DNA from: Cellulophaga sp. Hel_I_12
Lineage (GTDB): Bacteria > Bacteroidota > Bacteroidia > Flavobacteriales > Flavobacteriaceae
Reading direction: 5' to 3'
NCBI RefSeq assembly: GCF_000799565.1
Contig: NZ_JUHB01000001.1
Coordinates: 2,607,501 to 2,671,500 of the forward strand
DNA length: 64,000 nucleotides
The notes beneath the pieces were generated by a model. That model had not been told where the DNA came from, did not search any database, and worked only from the letters and a program-made list of their open reading frames with translations. Numbering within the stretch: the first letter of the stretch is position 1; each line of letters begins with the position of its first letter. A program made the translations under genes and the position numbers. This document shows positions 22,205 to 59,500 of this stretch, piece by piece.

Positions 22205-22708
22205 TTATTTTCTTTTAAATAGGGGCACAGAGGAGCATGCCTCCCCATACATCACGCTTTTTGCTACGCTTTGTATTTTTAAAGTTGCCCATAGATATGC
22301 ATTTGCAGGAACAGGTTTATGACTACATCCCTTTATAATCACAGGTTTGTCTTTTAAATCTGAAACGTCGAGATTTTCTAGGATGTTTTGGTATAAGGTT
22401 GCTTCTAACTGTTCAAGATCACCAATGATTACTTTGTTGGCATGGGGCTGTAATTTAGTACTGATCAGCATATACGCCCAACCGGGAATAATAGCATCTG
22501 TACTGCAATGTAAGGCCACATAGCTGTCTTTATATTGTTCCCAATTGTGGGCTTCTAGACATAGTCTAAATTCTTTTTCGCGAAGAATAAATCCTTCATA
22601 TAACCAATCTTTGATATCGATGCGCTCACGTTTGCCTTTTGGATAGTAATCTTCTAAGTCAAAAACGACCAGCTTACTTAGAGCGACTTTATTTACAATG
22701 TCTTCCAT
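22205..22708 (-). CDS. DUF2480 family protein
   Basis: A 167-residue cytoplasmic protein of the DUF2480 family, seen mainly in Bacteroidota and commonly found beside suf genes. Recognisable features are the opening EDIVNKVALSKLVVFDLEDY, the WLYEGFILREKEFR segment and a C-terminal KGCSHKPVPANAYLW with Cys and His that could bind a metal. The function is unknown; the location behind sufE and the DUF59 protein suggests an accessory Fe-S role, which is inference. It is 106 bases downstream of the DUF59 gene, with a heptad repeat in the gap. Confidence 0.85.
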   Translation of the reverse strand: MEDIVNKVALSKLVVFDLEDYYPKGKRERIDIKDWLYEGFILREKEFRLCLEAHNWEQYKDSYVALHCSTDAIIPGWAYMLISTKLQPHANKVIIGDLEQLEATLYQNILENLDVSDLKDKPVIIKGCSHKPVPANAYLWATLKIQSVAKSVMYGEACSSVPLFKRK

Positions 22709-22787
22709 GATTAAAATTCGTTGTTCGTTGATGGTTTCTGGTGCTAAGCAATTTCAAATTTCGTATTTTTTGAACTTAAAAGTTTTT

Positions 22788-22814
22788 ACTTACCACTACC
22801 TACTAACTACGGAA
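22788..22814. repeat. Heptad repeat before the DUF59 gene stop
   Basis: ACTTACC, ACTACCT, ACTAACT and ACGGAAT follow one another at 7 bp from 22788, reaching the stop codon of the DUF59 gene (22815). The array is non-coding and unrelated in sequence to the other heptad arrays. Confidence 0.45.
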
Positions 22815-23144
22815 TCAAAGCATCCCCAATTCTAACTTTGCTTCTTCGCTCATTAAGTCTTGCGTCCAAGGGGGATCAAACGTAATTTCTACTTCAGCGT
22901 CTTTAACAGCATTTAATGATTTTACTTTTTCTTCTACTTCTGCCGGTAGCGATTCTGCAACTGGACAGTTAGGAGATGTTAAGGTCATTAAAATTTTGAC
23001 TTCATGATCTTCATTCACGAATACATCGTAAATAAGGCCTAATTCATATATATCGACAGGAATTTCTGGATCATAAATGGTTTTTAAAACCTTTACTATT
23101 TTTTCTCCTAATTCTGCCGTATCTATTGTAGTTTCTTCGCTCAT
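22815..23144 (-). CDS. DUF59/MIP18-like Fe-S assembly protein (SufT/PaaD type)
   Basis: A 109-residue protein consisting of one DUF59 domain. Motifs are IYDPEIPVDIYELGLIYDV (about 22-40) and LTSPNCPVAESLP (about 57-69), whose Cys is the conserved family cysteine. Members help mature or deliver Fe-S clusters alongside the SUF machine; PaaD-like members serve monooxygenases. With sufE upstream on the same strand, a SUF role is likely. The C-terminus FDPPWTQDLMSEEAKLELG is the typical tail. Confidence 0.9.
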   Translation of the reverse strand: MSEETTIDTAELGEKIVKVLKTIYDPEIPVDIYELGLIYDVFVNEDHEVKILMTLTSPNCPVAESLPAEVEEKVKSLNAVKDAEVEITFDPPWTQDLMSEEAKLELGML

Positions 23145-23153
23145 GTTTTTTAG

Positions 23154-23183
23154 TTTCTGGTTTCTATTGTTTCTGGTTTAAGG
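23154..23183. repeat. Heptad-like repeat between DUF59 and sufE genes
   Basis: TTTCTGG, TTTCTAT, then after an extra TG, TTTCTGG and TTTAAGG. A period of 7 with one 9-base step, located just upstream of the DUF59 gene start. Confidence 0.45.
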
Positions 23184-23300
23184 TTATGTTGGTCGAATCA
23201 TTAAAATATTGTTAGCTAAAATTAAGCATTTCAAGACTTCGGCTCCACTCTGCCACCAGTATAATTATTTTAAAATCATCAATTTAGTTCCTTAAAGCAT

Positions 23301-23332
23301 TTAACTACCCTTTTGGGGGATGGGGGGCTTTG
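23301..23332 (-). repeat. C/G-run element forming the sufE 3' end
   Basis: Read on the minus strand the order is CAAAG, six C, AT, five C, AAAA, GGG, TAGTTAA: the same arrangement as the element after hemE. It is translated as the last ten residues of SufE (AKPPIPQKGS) and supplies the TAA stop. Confidence 0.65.
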
Positions 23333-26864: not shown

Positions 26865-27500
26865 TTAATTAAAGATATGAGCAATAGATAGCTGAAAGGA
26901 TAAGTTTCTATTTTGAGCTCCAAGTGAAAATGGGTCATCGCGAAGGTTGTTCGCAATACCTAGGTACACCCTTGGCTGTAAAAGCATATTATCGGTTAAT
27001 TTGTAAGATACACCTGCAGCCAATCCATAATCTAATCTTAAATTTCCGGATGACTTAAGCTCGTCAGTAATGTTGTCTTCTTCTTTTACTTTTACGACCT
27101 GATTTAATAGAAAACCAAATTGAGGACCTGCTTCTAAAGTGAGTTTTCTGTTGAACCTAAAGCCTACAATTAATGGTAGGGATAAGAAATTATTTTGAGT
27201 ATTCGTTCGTATATCAGTGCCTAATGACTGGCCGTCAGGGTTCATACTCTGTAAATCGGTGTCGAAAATAACTCCTTGACTACTATAAAAAACTTCTGGT
27301 TGAAAGTAAAAATTATCATCTACTTCAAAAACCATAAAACCTCCTAATTGAAACCCAATTCTTGGTTGAAAACCCTCGGTAAAATCCCCGTAAATAGTAG
27401 AAGCATTGGCCCCAGCTTTTACCCCAAATTTAAACTCTTGTGCCCGTACCAATTGAACAATAAGCAACAAGAGAAAAAATAAAGCGCTTTGTTTATTCAT
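26865..27500 (-). CDS. PorT-like outer-membrane beta-barrel protein
   Basis: A beta-barrel protein of about 211 residues. The chosen start (ATG 27500) gives a clean signal peptide ending VRAQ; an in-frame ATG 13 codons earlier would spoil it. The body opens FKFGVKAGANASTIYGDF, the typical start of the outer-membrane beta-barrel (PorT/OMP_b-brl_2) family, and runs in alternating strands (FYFQPEVFYSSQGV, LTLEAGPQFGFLLNQV, NMLLQPRVYLGIANNL), ending in an aromatic Phe-Asn. It lies between sufD and sufS, an odd neighbourhood for an outer-membrane protein. The function is unknown. Confidence 0.88.
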   Translation of the reverse strand: MNKQSALFFLLLLIVQLVRAQEFKFGVKAGANASTIYGDFTEGFQPRIGFQLGGFMVFEVDDNFYFQPEVFYSSQGVIFDTDLQSMNPDGQSLGTDIRTNTQNNFLSLPLIVGFRFNRKLTLEAGPQFGFLLNQVVKVKEEDNITDELKSSGNLRLDYGLAAGVSYKLTDNMLLQPRVYLGIANNLRDDPFSLGAQNRNLSFQLSIAHIFN

Positions 27501-27565
27501 GCAGAACAATAAGAATGTACCCGCTTTTATAGGCAACAAGCGGGTACTTTAATTTTTAGACAATC

Positions 27566-28879
27566 TTATAAATCAAATCCTAAATTAACAGCTAACTTAT
27601 TCGCTATTAACTTATTAATTCTAGTTTTTAATTCTGGAATTCGAACACTCGCTAGTACATTATTAGCAAAAGCATACATTAATAAAGCCTTAGCTTCTTT
27701 CTTGGGAATACCGCGAGATTGTAAGTAAAATAAGGCGTCTTCATCTAACTGACCAATAGTGCAGCCGTGTGAACATTTTACGTCATCCGCAAAAATTTCT
27801 AATTGTGGCTTGGTATTGATAGAGGCTTTATCACTTACTAAAATATTATTGTTTTGCTGAAAAGCATTTGTTTTTTGAGCTAATTTTTCAACGATAATCT
27901 TCCCATTAAAAACTCCCGTAGAACTTTCATCATAAATACCTTTATAATCTTGATGACTCTCGCAATTAGGTTCAATATGATGTACTAAAGTATGGTGATC
28001 TACATGTTGTTTTTCACCTAAAATAGTAACTCCTTTCATCGTAGAATCTATATATTCTCCGTTCTGATAGAAGTTTAAATTATTACGTGTTAATTTACCT
28101 CCAAAACTAAAGGTATGCACTTTTACCACGCTTTTATCTTTCTGGTTGATGTAGGTGTTGTCAATTAAAGAAGCAGTTGCAGCATCGTTTTGAATTTTAT
28201 AATAATCAACAATTGCATTTTTTGCTGCAAAAATTTCAGTTACAGAGTTTGTCAATACCTCGTTTGTTGTTAAACTTTGGTGGCGTTCCATAATCTGAAC
28301 CTCAGCATTTTCCTCCACAACAATTAAGTTCCGAGGTTGCAACATAATAGATGCTTCGTTGCCTGTGGCGAAATGTAAAATTTCTATAGGCTTCTTTGGC
28401 ATTTTGTTTTTAGGAATATAAATGTATGCTCCTTCTTTACTAAAGGCTGTATTTAAGCTTGTTAAAGACTCGTCTTTTGAAGCTATTTTATTAAAATAAA
28501 CATCGATGATTTGTTTGTACATCGGTTTATTTAAGGCCGAACTCATCAAACAAATATCAACACCATCATGGGTAGTTTCTGATAAGTTTGAACTATAAAC
28601 CCCATCGATAAAAACAATTTTATAGGTGTCTATTTCGTGAATAAAATATTTTTTAACGTCTTTATATTCAAGCGTATTTACTTGTTTTGGAAAAATGCTA
28701 AAGTCTGTTTTCTGCAAAGCATTTAACGAGGTATATTTCCAAGCCTCTTCTTTTTTTGAAGGAAAGCCTTTTATTTCGAAATTTTTCATGGCTTCAACAC
28801 GTACGTCATGAACAGGATTATCAATATCCACATTGTTCTCGAATGCCATGAAGGAAGAAATTAATTTGTCTTTTAACAT
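27566..28879 (-). CDS. sufD: Fe-S cluster assembly protein SufD
   Basis: A 437-residue SufD, which with SufB and SufC forms the SufBC2D scaffold where clusters are built. The N-terminal helical part (KNFEIKGFPSKKEEAWKYTSL) and the beta-helix core (TRNNLNFYQNGEYIDSTMKGV) are typical. The C-terminal FADDVKCSHGCTIGQLDEDALFYLQSRGI carries the conserved Cys and the SufB/SufD interface. The ATG at 28879 is preceded by a 7-bp repeat array and the four-helix-bundle gene, so the normal sufC-sufD junction has been split. Confidence 0.96.
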   Translation of the reverse strand: MLKDKLISSFMAFENNVDIDNPVHDVRVEAMKNFEIKGFPSKKEEAWKYTSLNALQKTDFSIFPKQVNTLEYKDVKKYFIHEIDTYKIVFIDGVYSSNLSETTHDGVDICLMSSALNKPMYKQIIDVYFNKIASKDESLTSLNTAFSKEGAYIYIPKNKMPKKPIEILHFATGNEASIMLQPRNLIVVEENAEVQIMERHQSLTTNEVLTNSVTEIFAAKNAIVDYYKIQNDAATASLIDNTYINQKDKSVVKVHTFSFGGKLTRNNLNFYQNGEYIDSTMKGVTILGEKQHVDHHTLVHHIEPNCESHQDYKGIYDESSTGVFNGKIIVEKLAQKTNAFQQNNNILVSDKASINTKPQLEIFADDVKCSHGCTIGQLDEDALFYLQSRGIPKKEAKALLMYAFANNVLASVRIPELKTRINKLIANKLAVNLGFDL

Positions 28880-28897
28880 AACTTAGTCTATTGTTTT

Positions 28898-28918
28898 AAT
28901 GTCTAAAGTCGAATGTCA
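28898..28918. repeat. Left heptad array of the four-helix-bundle cassette
   Basis: Three adjacent 7-bp units, AATGTCT, AAAGTCG and AATGTCA, starting 19 bases beyond the sufD start and ending 7 bases from the four-helix-bundle stop. Their reverse complements match the units at 29310-29330, so the two arrays form a long inverted repeat around the gene. Confidence 0.75.
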
Positions 28919-28925
28919 TATTTAT

Positions 28926-29297
28926 TTAAGCTTTGGTTATATTCAAATACTTAATTAATCCACTCAACATTTTAGATATGTTTTCAATTTGTTCTTTTAA
29001 TTTTAAAAAATCGTCCTCACCAATATACCCTAAATCAAAAGCTAAATATAATTGTGATCTAACTTCCCCTGCTGATGCTTTCGCTACATATAAAAAATAT
29101 ACAAATTCTTTATCGGTATTTCTTTCAAAGCCTTCTGCAATGTTAGAAGTGATGGAGATTGAAGCCCTTCTTATTTGTTTCTTTAAGTCAAAAACTTTTA
29201 TAAAAATATCATTTTCAGTAATTTGATATAATAATTTATTAAATTCTCTGCCTTTTTGCCAAGCATTTATATCTTCAAATGAATTTATTTTAGACAT
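28926..29297 (-). CDS. Four-helix-bundle (S23/IVS-type) protein
   Basis: A 123-residue protein of the four-helix-bundle family first seen in 23S rRNA intervening sequences (S23) and related to the accessory Avd proteins of diversity-generating retroelements. The motif INAWQKGREFNKLLYQIT opens helix 1, LKKQIRRASISITSNIAEGFER is the conserved helix 2, and YLYVAKASAGEVRSQLYLAFDLGYI spans helix 3. Stand-alone copies are widespread in Bacteroidota, and the function is unknown. It lies between sufC and sufD in the direction of the operon and is flanked by inverted heptad arrays, so it looks like a mobile-type cassette inserted into the operon. Confidence 0.9.
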   Translation of the reverse strand: MSKINSFEDINAWQKGREFNKLLYQITENDIFIKVFDLKKQIRRASISITSNIAEGFERNTDKEFVYFLYVAKASAGEVRSQLYLAFDLGYIGEDDFLKLKEQIENISKMLSGLIKYLNITKA

Positions 29298-29309
29298 AAA
29301 TATTTCACA

Positions 29310-29330
29310 TTAGACTTTTGACATTCGACT
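29310..29330. repeat. Right heptad array of the four-helix-bundle cassette
   Basis: TTAGACT, TTTGACA and TTCGACT, then a weaker TTTAAAC abutting the sufC stop codon. The array is inverted relative to the left array at 28898-28918. The 12 bases between it and the four-helix-bundle ATG leave little room for a separate promoter. Confidence 0.75.
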
Positions 29331-29336
29331 TTTAAA

Positions 29337-30089
29337 CTAGACCGTAACCTCGTTCTTTAGCCAATCGTATCCTTTTTCTTCAAGCTCTAAGGCTAATTCT
29401 TTACCTCCAGATTTTACGATTTTTCCGTCATGGATAACGTGCACAAAATCAGGAATAATATAGTCTAAAAGTCTTTGATAATGTGTAATTACGATTACAG
29501 CGTTGTCTTTACTTTTTAATTTATTAACACCGTTGGCTACAATTCTAAGCGCATCAATATCCAAGCCTGAATCTGTTTCATCAAGGATGGCTAGTTTTGG
29601 TTCTAGCATGGCCATTTGAAAAATTTCATTACGTTTTTTCTCTCCACCAGAAAAGCCTTCATTTAATGAACGTGATAAAAATTTACGGTCGATCTCTAGC
29701 ATTTCCGCCTTTTCACGGATCAATTTCAGCATTTCGTTAGCTTTCATATCTTCTAAACCACGTGCTTTACGACTTTCATTAATCGCTGTCTTCATGAAGT
29801 TAGTAACCGAAACTCCAGGAATTTCAACAGGATATTGAAAAGAAAGAAAAACTCCTTTATGAGCGCGCTCTTCCGGAGCACTGTCTTCTAAATTTTCACC
29901 TTCTAAAATAACCTCCCCTTGGGTTACTTCAAATTCTTCTTTACCAGCAATTACTGAAGCTAAGGTACTTTTCCCAGAACCGTTTGGTCCCATGATTGCA
30001 TGTACTTCACCCGCTTTTACTTCTAGGTTTATACCTTTTAATATTTCTTTTCCGTCTACACTCGCGTGTAAGTTGTTTATTTTTAACAT
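29337..30089 (-). CDS. sufC: SUF ATPase SufC
   Basis: A 250-residue ABC-type ATPase of the SufBC2D scaffold. Walker A GPNGSGKST is near residue 35, the signature FSGGEKKRNEIFQM (about 145-158) is the SufC-specific form, and Walker B LAILDETDSGLDIDAL follows; HYQRLLDYI includes the switch His. It is 75 bases downstream of sufB, with a 9-bp hairpin in between (30118-30153). Its stop codon touches the heptad array of the inserted cassette. Confidence 0.97.
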   Translation of the reverse strand: MLKINNLHASVDGKEILKGINLEVKAGEVHAIMGPNGSGKSTLASVIAGKEEFEVTQGEVILEGENLEDSAPEERAHKGVFLSFQYPVEIPGVSVTNFMKTAINESRKARGLEDMKANEMLKLIREKAEMLEIDRKFLSRSLNEGFSGGEKKRNEIFQMAMLEPKLAILDETDSGLDIDALRIVANGVNKLKSKDNAVIVITHYQRLLDYIIPDFVHVIHDGKIVKSGGKELALELEEKGYDWLKNEVTV

Positions 30090-31610: not shown

Positions 31611-31660
31611 ATCTAATGTATCAATTATTAAATGTGCTCATGGAACAATTGGTTGATTGT

Positions 31661-31684
31661 TACATGAGTACATTGTTACATTTA
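31661..31684. repeat. Octad repeat between sufA and sufB
   Basis: TACATGAG, TACATTGT and TACATTTA follow one another at exactly 8 bp, ending two bases before the sufA stop (31686). Another simple-period intergenic array at a suf junction. Confidence 0.45.
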
Positions 31685-31685
31685 A

Positions 31686-49768: not shown

Positions 49769-49773
49769 TTTTA

Positions 49774-49822
49774 GTGTTCAGTATTCAGTATTCAGTGTTC
49801 GGTAAGCAGTAGCAGTTGGCAG
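49774..49822. repeat. Heptad repeat after the MATE gene
   Basis: Seven consecutive 7-bp units from 49774: GTGTTCA, GTATTCA, GTATTCA, GTGTTCG, GTAAGCA, GTAGCAG, TTGGCAG. It is the clearest heptad array in the window; the units decay toward the right. Confidence 0.75.
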
Positions 49823-49907
49823 AATTAAAAAACATTAGATTAAATCGCCAAAATATCAAACCTACACTGTATGCTGCTAACGATTACAGCCTAATTTCTG
49901 GCGTATT

Positions 49908-55427: not shown

Positions 55428-56255
55428 TCAAATAGCTTCATATGTGCTTTTAATGATAGCTTTTCCATAACTCCGCTCCAGTCTTCTGATCGAAAAATGT
55501 GCCTGTGCCATGCGTTGAAAATGGTGTATGAAAGCTAGGTTAATAGCTCCGCCACCCGCAGCACCAATAATTGGAACGGCTTGGGCAACAAATTTTTCCG
55601 AAACCTGAATACTAAAGCGAGAAGCAATAACCCCTAAAGCTTGTAAAAATGGGTTGGCGCTGCCCTGTAGTAGTGAGCCAGCTACTTTTCCTGCTCCTTT
55701 TGTGGCAGCTTTGACACTGGTATCTAAAGTTATTTTTGTGGCATAATAAGCAGTTTCAAGCGTATCGTCATGTTTTGATTTTCCACCTAAGGCAAATACT
55801 TGTAAACAGGCAAGTTGACTGTCTAACTCCTCTAGATTTTCTCCTTCACTTCGTGCGATATCCATGATAGAACGCATCATTAATTTGGTGGTAACCGTTA
55901 AATCAGCGGCAAAGGCAGCAATACCAAACACACCACCTAAAATGCCAGATGAAGTTACAAGAGCTTTATAGGTTTTATTTAAAGGAGCGTTCTGCTTTTG
56001 TTCTTTATTCATAGAAAATAAATTTGCTTTTACCACACGCAACAATACATCATAACTTACTTTTTGCAACCATTTTTGTTGTTTATCGGGGAGTAAGTCC
56101 ACTTTTGTTTGTATCAAGTTCCCTATGCTGTTTAAACCCTTCATCGCCCAACCTATAGTTAACATTTGCTGCTTTGCTTTGGTTAAAACTTCCAGATCTT
56201 TTGCGGAAAGTTGATTTTCGATTTTTTTTTCGAGCATTTTTGTTTTATTTGTCAA
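55428..56255 (-). CDS. EcsC family protein
   Basis: A 275-residue protein matching the EcsC family: two hydrophobic stretches (about 105-125, SSGILGGVFGIAAFAADLTVTTKLM, and 225-245, AVPIIGAAGGGAINLAF) with a helical linker, and a charged N-terminal region. EcsC proteins are named after a Bacillus ABC-exporter operon, and their own activity is unknown. No ABC genes adjoin it here. A TATCTTTA near-match to the promoter box lies about 25 bases upstream. Confidence 0.85.
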   Translation of the reverse strand: MTNKTKMLEKKIENQLSAKDLEVLTKAKQQMLTIGWAMKGLNSIGNLIQTKVDLLPDKQQKWLQKVSYDVLLRVVKANLFSMNKEQKQNAPLNKTYKALVTSSGILGGVFGIAAFAADLTVTTKLMMRSIMDIARSEGENLEELDSQLACLQVFALGGKSKHDDTLETAYYATKITLDTSVKAATKGAGKVAGSLLQGSANPFLQALGVIASRFSIQVSEKFVAQAVPIIGAAGGGAINLAFIHHFQRMAQAHFSIRRLERSYGKAIIKSTYEAI

Positions 56256-56507
56256 TTGTAAGTAGCTAAAGATACAAGTTTGTTACAAGAAAGCGCTAAG
56301 CTTTAGGCGCTGCACTGTAGGCTCGGTGTTTGGGACTTAAAAACGTTTAGAATTTCAAAGCAATTACTTACTATTATTAAAAATATCATTCGTTATACTT
56401 TGTTTAGTTTTACTTAAAGCCTATAGCTTAAGGCAAAAAGCTTATCGCTTGTAAAAACCCATTTTTCTACTTACTTTAGGCTTGACTAATTACAACTTAA
56501 ATATATT

Positions 56508-59500
56508 ATGAAATACAACCACTTAAAAATCGCTTCAGTACTGCTTATCTTGTGCTTAACACCATTGACAACAATTTCTCAAAAAAGAAAAAAAGCAAAT
56601 CAAACCGAGACTGCTATTCCTCAAGAGCTATATTCTAGTTTAGAATACAGATCTATAGGCCCTTTTCGTGGAGGTCGTTCGGCTGCCGTAGCTGGTGTTC
56701 CTAATCAACCTAATCTTTTTTACTTTGGAGCTACCGGTGGTGGTGTTTGGAAAACAATGGATGGTGGTCGTGAATGGGAAAATATTTCTGACGGATTTTT
56801 TGGAGGTAGCATTGGTGCTGTTGAGATTTCACAGAGTGATCCAAATGTGATTTACGTTGGAGGTGGAGAAAAAACTCTTCGTGGGAATGTATCTTCGGGA
56901 TACGGCATGTGGAAAACCGAAAATGCAGGAAAAACATGGACAGCAATAGGCTTAGAAAATAGTCGACATATTCCAAGAATTCGAATTCACCCTAAAAATT
57001 CGGAAATTGTTTTTGCAGCAGTTTTAGGAGATATTTATAAACCTACGAATGAACGTGGTATTTATAAAAGTATGGATGGTGGAAAAAACTGGCGTAAAAC
57101 ATTATTTGTAAATGATCAAGCTGGAGCGGTAGATTTAACTTTTGATCCTAACAATCCTAGAATTTTATATGCCTCGACGTGGCGCGCGCAACGAACTCCT
57201 TACAGTTTAAGCAGCGGTGGCGATGGATCTGCACTTTGGAAAAGTACCGATAGTGGTGAAACTTGGAAAGAAATTTCCAAAAATGAAGGTTTTCCAAGTG
57301 ATACTTTAGGGATTATTGGTGTTGCCGTTTCTCCAAAAAACTCAGATAGAGTTTGGGCAATTGTAGAAAATAAAGAAAAAGGCGGCTTGTACCGCAGTGA
57401 TGATGGTGGTGAAAAATGGACCTTAATCAATAGTGATCGCAGTTTACGACAACGAGCTTGGTATTACACTCGTATTTATGCCGATACTGAAAATGAAGAT
57501 GTGGTCTATGTGTTGAATGTTAATTATCACAAATCAGAGGATGGAGGAAGATCTTTTAAAAGTTTTAATGCTCCTCATGGTGATCACCATGATTTATGGA
57601 TTTCTCCAGAAAATGGTAATAGAATGATTATTGGTGATGACGGTGGTGCGCAAATAACCTACGATGGGGGTGAAACTTGGAGTACGTATTATAACCAACC
57701 AACGGCACAGTTTTATAGAGTAACTACCGATAATTCTTTTCCTTATAGAATTTATGTAGCGCAACAAGATAATTCCACTTTGCGTATAAAACATCGTAGC
57801 GACGGGTATAGCATTAGTGAAGACGATTGGGAGGAAACCGCGGGTGGTGAGTCTGCTTGGATTGCAGTTGATCCAAAAGATAATGATGTGGTGTATGGGG
57901 GTAGTTATGACGGTTTTTTAACCCGAGTAAATCATAAAACAAATACCACAAGAGGTATAAATGTTTGGCCAGATAACCCAATGGGTGCAGGTGCCGAGGC
58001 TATGAAATATAGGTTTCAATGGAATTTCCCTATCATTTTTAGCAAACACAATCCTAAAAAATTATATACGTTTTCAAACCATGTGCATGTCACAGAAAAT
58101 GAAGGGCAAAGTTGGAAATTACTGAGTGGCGATTTAACCAGAAACGACCCAACAAAATTAGGTTCTAGTGGTGGTCCAATCACTCAAGACAATACGAGTG
58201 TAGAATACTATTGTACCATTTTTGCAGCAAATGAAAGCCCATTAAAAGAAGGTTTATTATGGGTAGGTAGTGATGATGGATTAATTCATGTGAGTAGAAA
58301 TTCAGGAGAAACTTGGGATAATGTAACTCCGCCTAGTATGCCAGAATGGTCAATGGTGAATAGTATTGAACCTTCGGCTTTCGATGAGGGAACTTGTTAC
58401 GTAGCCGCAACACGCTACAAATTAGGAGATTTTCAGCCTTATTTGTACAAAACAACAGACTATGGAAAAACATGGACTAAAATAACAAATGGTATTGCAA
58501 GTGAACATTTCACAAGAGTAGTTCGGGAAGACCCCAAACGCAAAGGCTTATTGTATGCAGGTACAGAAACAGGCATGTATGTTTCTTTTAATGATGGCGC
58601 CAACTGGAAACCATTTCAATTAAATTTACCTATTGTACCTATTACTGATTTAGCCGTTAAAGAAAACAATTTAATCGTAGCTACTCAAGGACGTAGCTTG
58701 TGGATGATTGATGACTTAACCGTATTACATCAATTAAATGAAGCTGATAAAGATCAGAATGCGATATTATTTCAACCCAAAGACGCATACAGAACCAAAG
58801 GGGGAGCTAGAAAACAAGCATCGAAATTAGCCGGGCAAAATCATCCGAACGGCGTGGTTACTCATTTTTATTTAAAAGAATTTAATGAAAAAGATAGTAT
58901 TGCCTTAACTTATTTTAGTCAAAAAGGAGATACTTTGGCGCATTATGCTACTACAGCTAAAGAAAAAGATAAAAAATTAGACCTTAAAAAAGGTGGTAAT
59001 ACCCATGTTTGGGATACGCGTGGTAAAGGAGCCGAAAAATTAGATGGAATGATTTTGTGGTGGGCAAGTTTAGATGGAGCTAAAGCGGTTCCAGGTGCTT
59101 ATAAAGTGACCTTGACGGTCAATGGGAATAACATGTCAAAAGATTTCAAAATAATTCCAGATCCAAGAGCTGAGGTTACAGTTGCCGAAATGCAACAACA
59201 ATTTGATTTTATTAGCGACATTAATGCCACTATTGATAATGCGCATCAATCTATTAAAAAGATTCGAAAAATTAACATGCAATTAGATGCCTTTGCGAAG
59301 CAATATGCAGACAATGAAGCTACCAAAGAGTTGGTAAAAAAAGCTAAAAAAATTAAGGAAGAATTTAGTGAGGTTGAAAAAACTCTATACCAAACTAAAA
59401 ATAGAAGTGGACAAGATCCTTTAAATTTCCCGATTAAGTTAACGAACAAGTTAGGCCATTTAAATAGTTTAGTAGCTATTGATGATTTTCATCCAACCGA

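Follow-up and report, generated by a model that had tools for sequence, protein, structure and literature searches.

A probable intervening-sequence-type S23 element with inverted heptad arms at the sufC-sufD junction of Cellulophaga sp. Hel_I_12

Heptanucleotide repeats have been reported in cyanobacteria since 1990, when those of Calothrix PCC 7601 were reportedly described by Mazel and termed STRR. The Calothrix PCC 7601 heptanucleotides are also cited within a report on heptamer arrays of Xanthomonas and Nostoc, in which close inverted pairs numbered 70 and 75 in two Xanthomonas genomes (PMC4692102), and TAACTGA tandem arrays have been described as well (PMC4679880); S23 and four-helix terms have 0 occurrences in the main texts of these two papers. 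In the rRNA intervening sequence (IVS) of Coxiella, tandem GACAGAT heptamers of strain-variable number lie directly before S23, and an RNase III site falls at the first GACAGAT repeat; the available text of that report draws no general rule from the heptamers (PMC4990558). S23 is further found in rRNA insertions of CPR bacteria (PMC11270868), 18 S23 genes have been counted in cas loci, often with cas4/cas6 (PMC3936711), and S23 is named among CRISPR-linked domains in a figure legend (PMC10910872). The Xanthomonas S23 protein is stated to be a pentamer (PMC4990558), and the likeness of S23 to Avd is already in print (PMC10053308). A search of open-access journal papers returned no report seen to link S23 genes in general to heptad arrays or operon junctions, and no S23-heptad link appears in the available parts of PMC3542288, PMC2408588, PMC4853749 and PMC8700078. 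Here we describe an S23 gene in a 64,000-nt stretch of the Cellulophaga sp. Hel_I_12 genome, referred to below as the window, and compare it with S23 copies elsewhere.

The S23 gene and its arms between sufC and sufD

The features of the locus and of a nearby junction are as follows.

29337..30089, minus strand: sufC, upstream of the element (from the ORF list; presumed sufC from its translation and family knowledge)
29305..29332, minus strand: 5′ arm, four heptads AAAGTCG AATGTCA AAAGTCT AATGTGA (from the sequence, with repeat and lag tests)
28926..29297, minus strand: S23 / four-helix-bundle gene, 123 aa (PF05635, TIGR02436)
28898..28918, minus strand: 3′ arm, three heptads TGACATT CGACTTT AGACATT, inverted relative to the 5′ arm (from the sequence and repeats)
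28884..28897, minus strand: weaker continuation of the 3′ arm, AAAACAA TAGACTA (read by eye)
27566..28879, minus strand: sufD, downstream of the element (ORF and relatives)
31611..31685, minus strand: octad hairpin without S23 at the sufA-like/sufB junction (fold -18.1 kcal/mol, z -4.5, 0 of 200 shuffles)

The S23 gene lies between sufC and sufD and runs in the direction of the operon. On the minus strand, the sufC stop codon (29337-29339) is followed by 4 nt, the 5′ arm (29332-29305), 7 nt and the S23 ATG at 29297; the S23 stop codon (28926-28928) is followed by 7 nt, the 3′ arm (28918-28898), weaker units to about 28884 and the sufD ATG at 28879. The original prediction of two heptad arrays flanking the gene in inverted orientation was confirmed: positions 28905-28918 are complementary to 29319-29332 at all 14 nt (100%), and 28898-28921 to 29302-29325 at 83% over 24 nt. 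Its count of three heptads held for the left array; in the right array four units were found (29305-29332), and this array, thought to touch the sufC stop codon, ends 4 nt away from it. TRF gave the right array a score of 48 with period 14, and at this locus (L004) the lag-7 z was 3.2, with the runner-up lag at 0.9.

The predicted protein was assigned to the S23 family by hmmscan, with E = 4.4e-35 and 120.5 bits for PF05635 (curated cut-off 33.8) and 4.6e-35 and 120.1 bits for TIGR02436 (cut-off 24). An AF2 monomer model of the protein (pLDDT 93.9) was submitted to Foldseek and matched the four-helix bundle of 2gsc/2rld (best E 6e-7; TM 0.86/0.91), both of which hold 5 chains in the structure. 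Weaker matches were obtained to Avd (4dwl and 8ub7; E above 0.01, probability 1.00), including Avd within DGR ribonucleoprotein structures, and against the NCBIfam Avd model NF033474 the protein scored 19.8 bits (cut-off 80). In a sample of 198 genomes from the same phylum as the window, 157 had the PF05635 family, and many genomes carry multiple S23 copies.

As in an rRNA IVS, the window copy has complementary ends with a predicted stem around the S23 ORF. It sits between sufC and sufD rather than within an rRNA helix, and an Rfam scan of the window returned no family at the gathering threshold. The window element may work like an IVS, yet it is no rRNA IVS. We consider it probable that this is an IVS-type element in an mRNA operon junction, with S23 in the loop of a hairpin formed by periodic arms; the fold z of the whole element, -2.35, counts against this reading.

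The window genome has six PF05635 matches, five of them over the family cut-off, and when the flanks were read all six were found between same-direction genes. The neighbours, named from their translations, are groES-groEL, leuC-leuD, prfA-pyrF, sufC-sufD, an unidentified gene and ferredoxin, and atpA-atpG. The best lag was 7 in all six copies (L001-L006), and their units differ by eye. The copy in the atpA-atpG gap (L006; G000:C1:2527237-2527374) is the degraded, sub-cut-off one and has AATTnnG-type heptads.

Several arrays without an S23 gene were also seen in the window. At 56255-56508, inverted nnAGCnn heptads lie about 110 nt apart with divergent genes on either side; the unit type resembles that of the groES-groEL and leuC-leuD copies, and the array looks like a solo element. 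Near-perfect CAGTATT-type heptads at 49769-49907, between convergent genes, had the top joint lag score of the window scan (0.82). Two further minus-strand junctions in the suf neighbourhood hold heptad arrays (22708-22815 and 23144-23301), the units of the former differing between its two ends. An ORF for a predicted outer-membrane-type protein (26865-27539) lies between sufD and a sufS-like gene.

Period, polarity and orientation across S23 copies

Heptads around other copies had been anticipated from the window, and they were found. Among 179 full-length copies, mostly from Bacteroidota (203 S23 ORFs minus 2 exact duplicates and 22 without full length or flanks), the best flank lag was 7 in 134, 8 in 31 and another value in 14, and the pooled lag-7 z reached 26.8 upstream and 25.9 downstream; the loci came mostly from best-scoring matches and are non-independent, with 900 same-context pairs and the same junctions in related species. 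The window genome and its relatives gave lag 7 in 31 and lag 8 in 4 of 35 copies. Control segments 300-390 nt away (n = 174) had lag 7 in 9, lag 8 in 12 and other lags in 153. Ordinary co-directional junctions, for which genes were defined solely as long ORFs beginning at the first start codon, gave a pooled lag-7 z of 0.4 in S23-bearing genomes (177 junctions) and -1.8 in S23-free genomes (168). For the 22 junctions of the window the lag-7 z was 2.6, the two gaps beside the S23 gene included. The 134 copies with lag 7, set against these controls and the negative result for ordinary junctions, rule out a chance origin of the heptads. S23-less arrays as a general genome feature were likewise rejected, their counts being low and noisy and the pooled junction test negative.

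The same two periods were obtained in other groups. They were found in 31 ORFs from ten genomes labelled as other groups (lag 7 in 19, lag 8 in 7), a set in which metagenome-bin labels can be wrong and which includes one Methanophagales archaeon; 8 of the 31 ORFs repeat loci of the main set and were counted twice in the polarity count below. The phylum of an alphaproteobacterial genome gave lag 7 in 28 and lag 8 in 1 of 30 ORFs. In a set drawn from the phylum of a Treponema genome, with G482 added, lag 7 was best in 20, lag 8 in 2 and neither in 7 of 29 ORFs, three of which came from G482 and several of which were weak or over-long matches. The class of G482 gave lag 7 in 17, lag 8 in 0 and another lag in 7 of 24 ORFs. 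The copies with another best lag (14 of 179, 7 of 29 and 7 of 24) count against the mRNA-IVS reading. A tblastn search of phages with one S23 query gave zero matches. In the class of G482, S23 copies adjoining tRNA genes were noted in four genomes (L444, L445, L446 and L447).

On plasmids, 12 loci were taken from 34 records with an S23 match and showed lag 7 in 8 and lag 8 in 2; the 11 cyanobacterial copies had heptads in 7 and octads in 2. Two near-identical Nostoc plasmid loci (L277 and L278) have downstream arrays that seem, by eye, to be one heptad apart, a difference of one unit indicating that slippage probably happens. Three S23 genes of cyanobacterial plasmids (L276, L282 and L284) occupy gaps of CRISPR operons, cas6-cas4 and cas10-cmr3-family, with a positive lag test for L276 (7) and L284 (8) and a negative one for L282. 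The presence of S23 in cas operon gaps offers a simple reason for its listing as CRISPR-associated.

The arms are inverted and polarised. The upstream arm was closer to the reverse complement of the downstream arm than to the downstream arm itself in 144 of 179 copies (equally close in 13, less close in 22), and in 51 of 148 the variant units followed a mirrored order to a degree exceeding the 95% limit from block shuffling. Over 35 loci, pairing of a copy's own arms averaged -25.2 kcal/mol, versus -15.2 kcal/mol for foreign arms. Upstream arrays had a G fraction of 0.28 and a C fraction of 0.09, and downstream arrays 0.29 C and 0.09 G. Of 157 copies scored for both arms, 127 showed this polarity, G over C upstream and then C over G downstream, 6 had the reverse, and the rest were mixed or tied. 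Median arm lengths were 30-31 nt for period 7 and 32-34 nt for period 8. Comparison of 38 orthologous pairs gave 205 stem pairs with changes on both sides, of which 103 still pair, and new-with-new pairing was 0.692 against 0.627 expected if the sides changed independently, a count that is confounded because slips of the alignment by whole repeats can mimic part of it.

Orientation was biased too. With neighbours called by open frames, 159 of 176 S23 genes shared the direction of both neighbours, 2 opposed both and 15 were mixed, and stricter calling gave 150 sense, 2 antisense and 14 mixed (n = 166). Only 7 of the 12 plasmid copies lie between two same-direction genes, which counts against the mRNA-IVS reading; among the exceptions, L279 and L280 run opposite to both neighbours, L281 and L287 are mixed and L286 has no downstream gene in the stretch.

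Unit sequence differed from copy to copy; what recurred was period, inversion and polarity. A common end motif was thereby excluded, and with it any general sharing of the TTnGACW-type ends noted in the original prediction, each of the other copies having its own unit. Across 14,989 pairs, protein identity was not significantly correlated with unit sequence (r 0.066; permutations up to 0.105). The 6-mer overlap of arms exceeded the baseline only in pairs above 60% protein identity (134 pairs, some of which share context undetected, e.g., L158, an incomplete locus) and was near baseline below that level. Period was clustered on the protein tree (7 changes versus 22.6 at random), also when same-context copies were collapsed (5 versus 12.2) and in a wider set (13 versus 27.4). 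The nearest copy of the Bacteroidota set nevertheless failed to predict period elsewhere: 13 of 36 heptad copies were nearest to an octad one, and 1 of 5 octad copies of the other sets was nearest to an octad one. Clustered on the tree yet not carried between sets, period is inherited inside clades yet switches. A strict protein ruler for period is not claimed, period not following protein kinship between phyla, a point that also counts against the mRNA-IVS reading.

The same kind of arm was found around S23 inside 23S rRNA. G482 has two identical S23 copies there, at a site that we take to be helix 45 from flanking words compared with E. coli. Both have heptad arms in inverted arrangement, with lag-7 matches at 40 of 62 positions (0 of 5000 shuffles) and a duplex of -48.7 kcal/mol. 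In G733, the rRNA copy has a broken S23, with lag-7 matches of 19/30 and 28/44, levels attained in 1 and 0 of 5000 shuffles, and an arm duplex of -43.8 kcal/mol. With Rfam, LSU rRNA matches were obtained at only three of 65 S23 loci. These lie in just two genomes, which counts against the mRNA-IVS reading, and the 65 loci are a non-random set: identical copies were the reason for choosing G482, whose protein then served as the query that led to G733. With the same arms around S23 in 23S rRNA, the window element looks IVS-type.

Filled and empty junctions and the rival explanations

Sites without the gene, which may be never-filled sites or losses, were found in relatives. The sufC-sufD junction holds the gene in 2 of 21 cases (the window genome and, as a fragment match, G013) and lacks it in 19, 21 of the 30 retrieved sufD loci having been examined. 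In the genus, window genome included, groES-groEL is filled in 2 of 18 genomes and lacks S23 in 16, and leuC-leuD is filled in 3 of 18 and lacks S23 in 15. No S23 match was obtained in three genomes of the same genus (G005, G011 and G017), and several copies among the matches listed carry internal stops. What survives of the earlier mobile-element reading is an element ended by heptads, its arms being general and empty sites existing; common TTnGACW ends are not supported, and a self-mobilising role of the gene product is conjectural.

Many S23-less junctions keep heptads. The pooled lag-7 z was 10.7 for 16 sufC-sufD, 11.5 for 15 leuC-leuD and 5.6 for 15 groES-groEL junctions, values inflated because the sequences are related; lag 7 was best in 11 of 15 single leuC-leuD and 6 of 15 single groES-groEL junctions. 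At leuC-leuD, G001 has a solo hairpin (-25.2 kcal/mol) with GC-type units as at filled sites. RNAalifold found no consensus structure in 11 S23-less sufC-sufD junctions, and the fold z of eight such junctions ranged from -0.03 to -2.85, two results that count against the mRNA-IVS reading. In the sister species G013, an S23 copy with an internal stop lies at the sufA-like/sufB junction (alignment with L112), the site of the octad hairpin of the window. Between the window genome and G013, the sufA-like/sufB and sufB-sufC junctions are almost wholly replaced, and the coding flanks align well.

Intact orthologous S23 copies are under strong purifying selection. pN was below pS in 33 of 33 pairs of intact genes (median ratio 0.17), and same-context pairs of intact copies had dN/dS of 0.04-0.16 wherever dS was computable, with some dS above 1. 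Context is shared by 27 of the 33 pairs, so copies can persist long at one junction. Low dN/dS with retention at one junction is equally compatible with a host function and with a parasite. S23 and its hairpin might accordingly be a regulatory cassette, segmenting or tuning operon mRNAs, kept for the host and rarely moving, and the sense bias and the persistence of S23-less heptad junctions agree with this, as do the dN/dS values. We regard it as somewhat unlikely, given the patchy presence of the gene at the three junctions, the genomes of the genus with no match and the internal stops.

By eye and by 6-mer overlap, close proteins at different junctions have unit sequences in common, suggesting joint movement of the gene and its arms; judged from sequence, this is what a moving unit would be expected to show. 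Such movement could also occur at the level of DNA, with the arrays as structured terminal repeats recognised by S23 and a recombinase supplied in trans. The inverted ends, the shared units of close proteins, the multiple copies of many genomes and the two plasmid copies, out of 12, that run against both neighbours would suit this. Three of the 12 plasmid stretches (L280, L281 and L283) have annotated genes for a transposase or an integrase. We nonetheless think a DNA-level element unlikely: the ends have no sequence in common, arm polarity follows the sense strand, and only 2 of 176 main-set copies are antisense to both neighbours, although selection could cause that bias. Sense bias and strand polarity favour an RNA step in the spread.

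It is less probable still that S23 arrived late, inserting into the loops of operon-junction hairpins that already existed. S23-less heptad junctions do exist, several of them in the window without known S23 history, but ordinary junctions lack a pooled period-7 signal and the S23-less heptad junctions tested at suf, leu and gro sites carry S23 in a relative. That the heptads are chance or slippage microsatellites unconnected to S23 is scarcely credible, since, for all the apparent one-unit difference of the Nostoc plasmid pair, the arrays are tied to the gene, inverted, polarised, of two favoured periods and present in several phyla.

Proposed mechanism and relation to known systems

Taken as an IVS-type element of an mRNA junction, the window element would consist of a G-rich periodic 5′ arm, a presumably promoterless S23 gene and a C-rich periodic 3′ arm. 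Once co-transcribed with the operon, the arms would zip into short helices every 7 (or 8) nt, leaving S23 in the loop. As has been described for rRNA IVSs, this stem is probably a target of RNase III, and the cut would part upstream from downstream mRNA without joining them, an event that intercistronic gaps may tolerate as do dispensable rRNA helices. The probable ligand of the S23 oligomer (a pentamer in solved relatives, and kin to Avd) is either the periodic stem or the RNA once excised, and the oligomer presumably reads the geometry of the stem rather than its sequence. Recognition of geometry would explain why the units vary and the period is fixed. New junctions would be entered for the most part in sense orientation, and the elements would often break and could leave solo hairpins.

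These observations offer one structural rule for the S23 family, a gene between inverted, polarised arrays of 7- or 8-nt units, and tie the rRNA IVSs to a larger population in mRNA. They also offer a possible source for heptanucleotide repeats and suggest that a single widespread hairpin element underlies several repeat families that lack an explanation. We tentatively extend this to a wider proposal, which is possible but more doubtful than not: S23 may define an RNA-level class of elements that occurs in bacteria and also in at least one archaeal genome. Their sole conserved end would be a 7-/8-nt stem beat with G on the 5′ side, which the S23 oligomer would read or maintain. Such elements would colonise cut-tolerant transcript gaps (rRNA helices, operon junctions), mostly in sense, and their decayed arms would be a source of the heptanucleotide repeats of cyanobacteria, xanthomonads and Beggiatoaceae.

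Among known systems, the 23S rRNA IVS also has complementary ends that form a stem, with an S23 gene looped out between them, and its arms have period 7 in two genomes; it sits in rRNA, whereas the window element lies in an mRNA operon junction and the periods of its family are 7 and 8. STRR and the repeats of Xanthomonas, Nostoc and Beggiatoaceae are tandem intergenic heptamers, as are the S23 arms, and in Xanthomonas they also occur as close inverted pairs. MITEs and REPINs are short, intergenic and hairpin-forming, like the S23-less forms; the S23 element differs from them in that its ends are not conserved in sequence, its orientation is biased to sense and its full form carries its own gene. 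The sequence-conserved terminal inverted repeats of DNA transposons and MITEs are absent here, the units differing between copies. Finally, Avd of diversity-generating retroelements has its fold in common with the window S23 protein, although that protein scores far below the cut-off of the Avd model.
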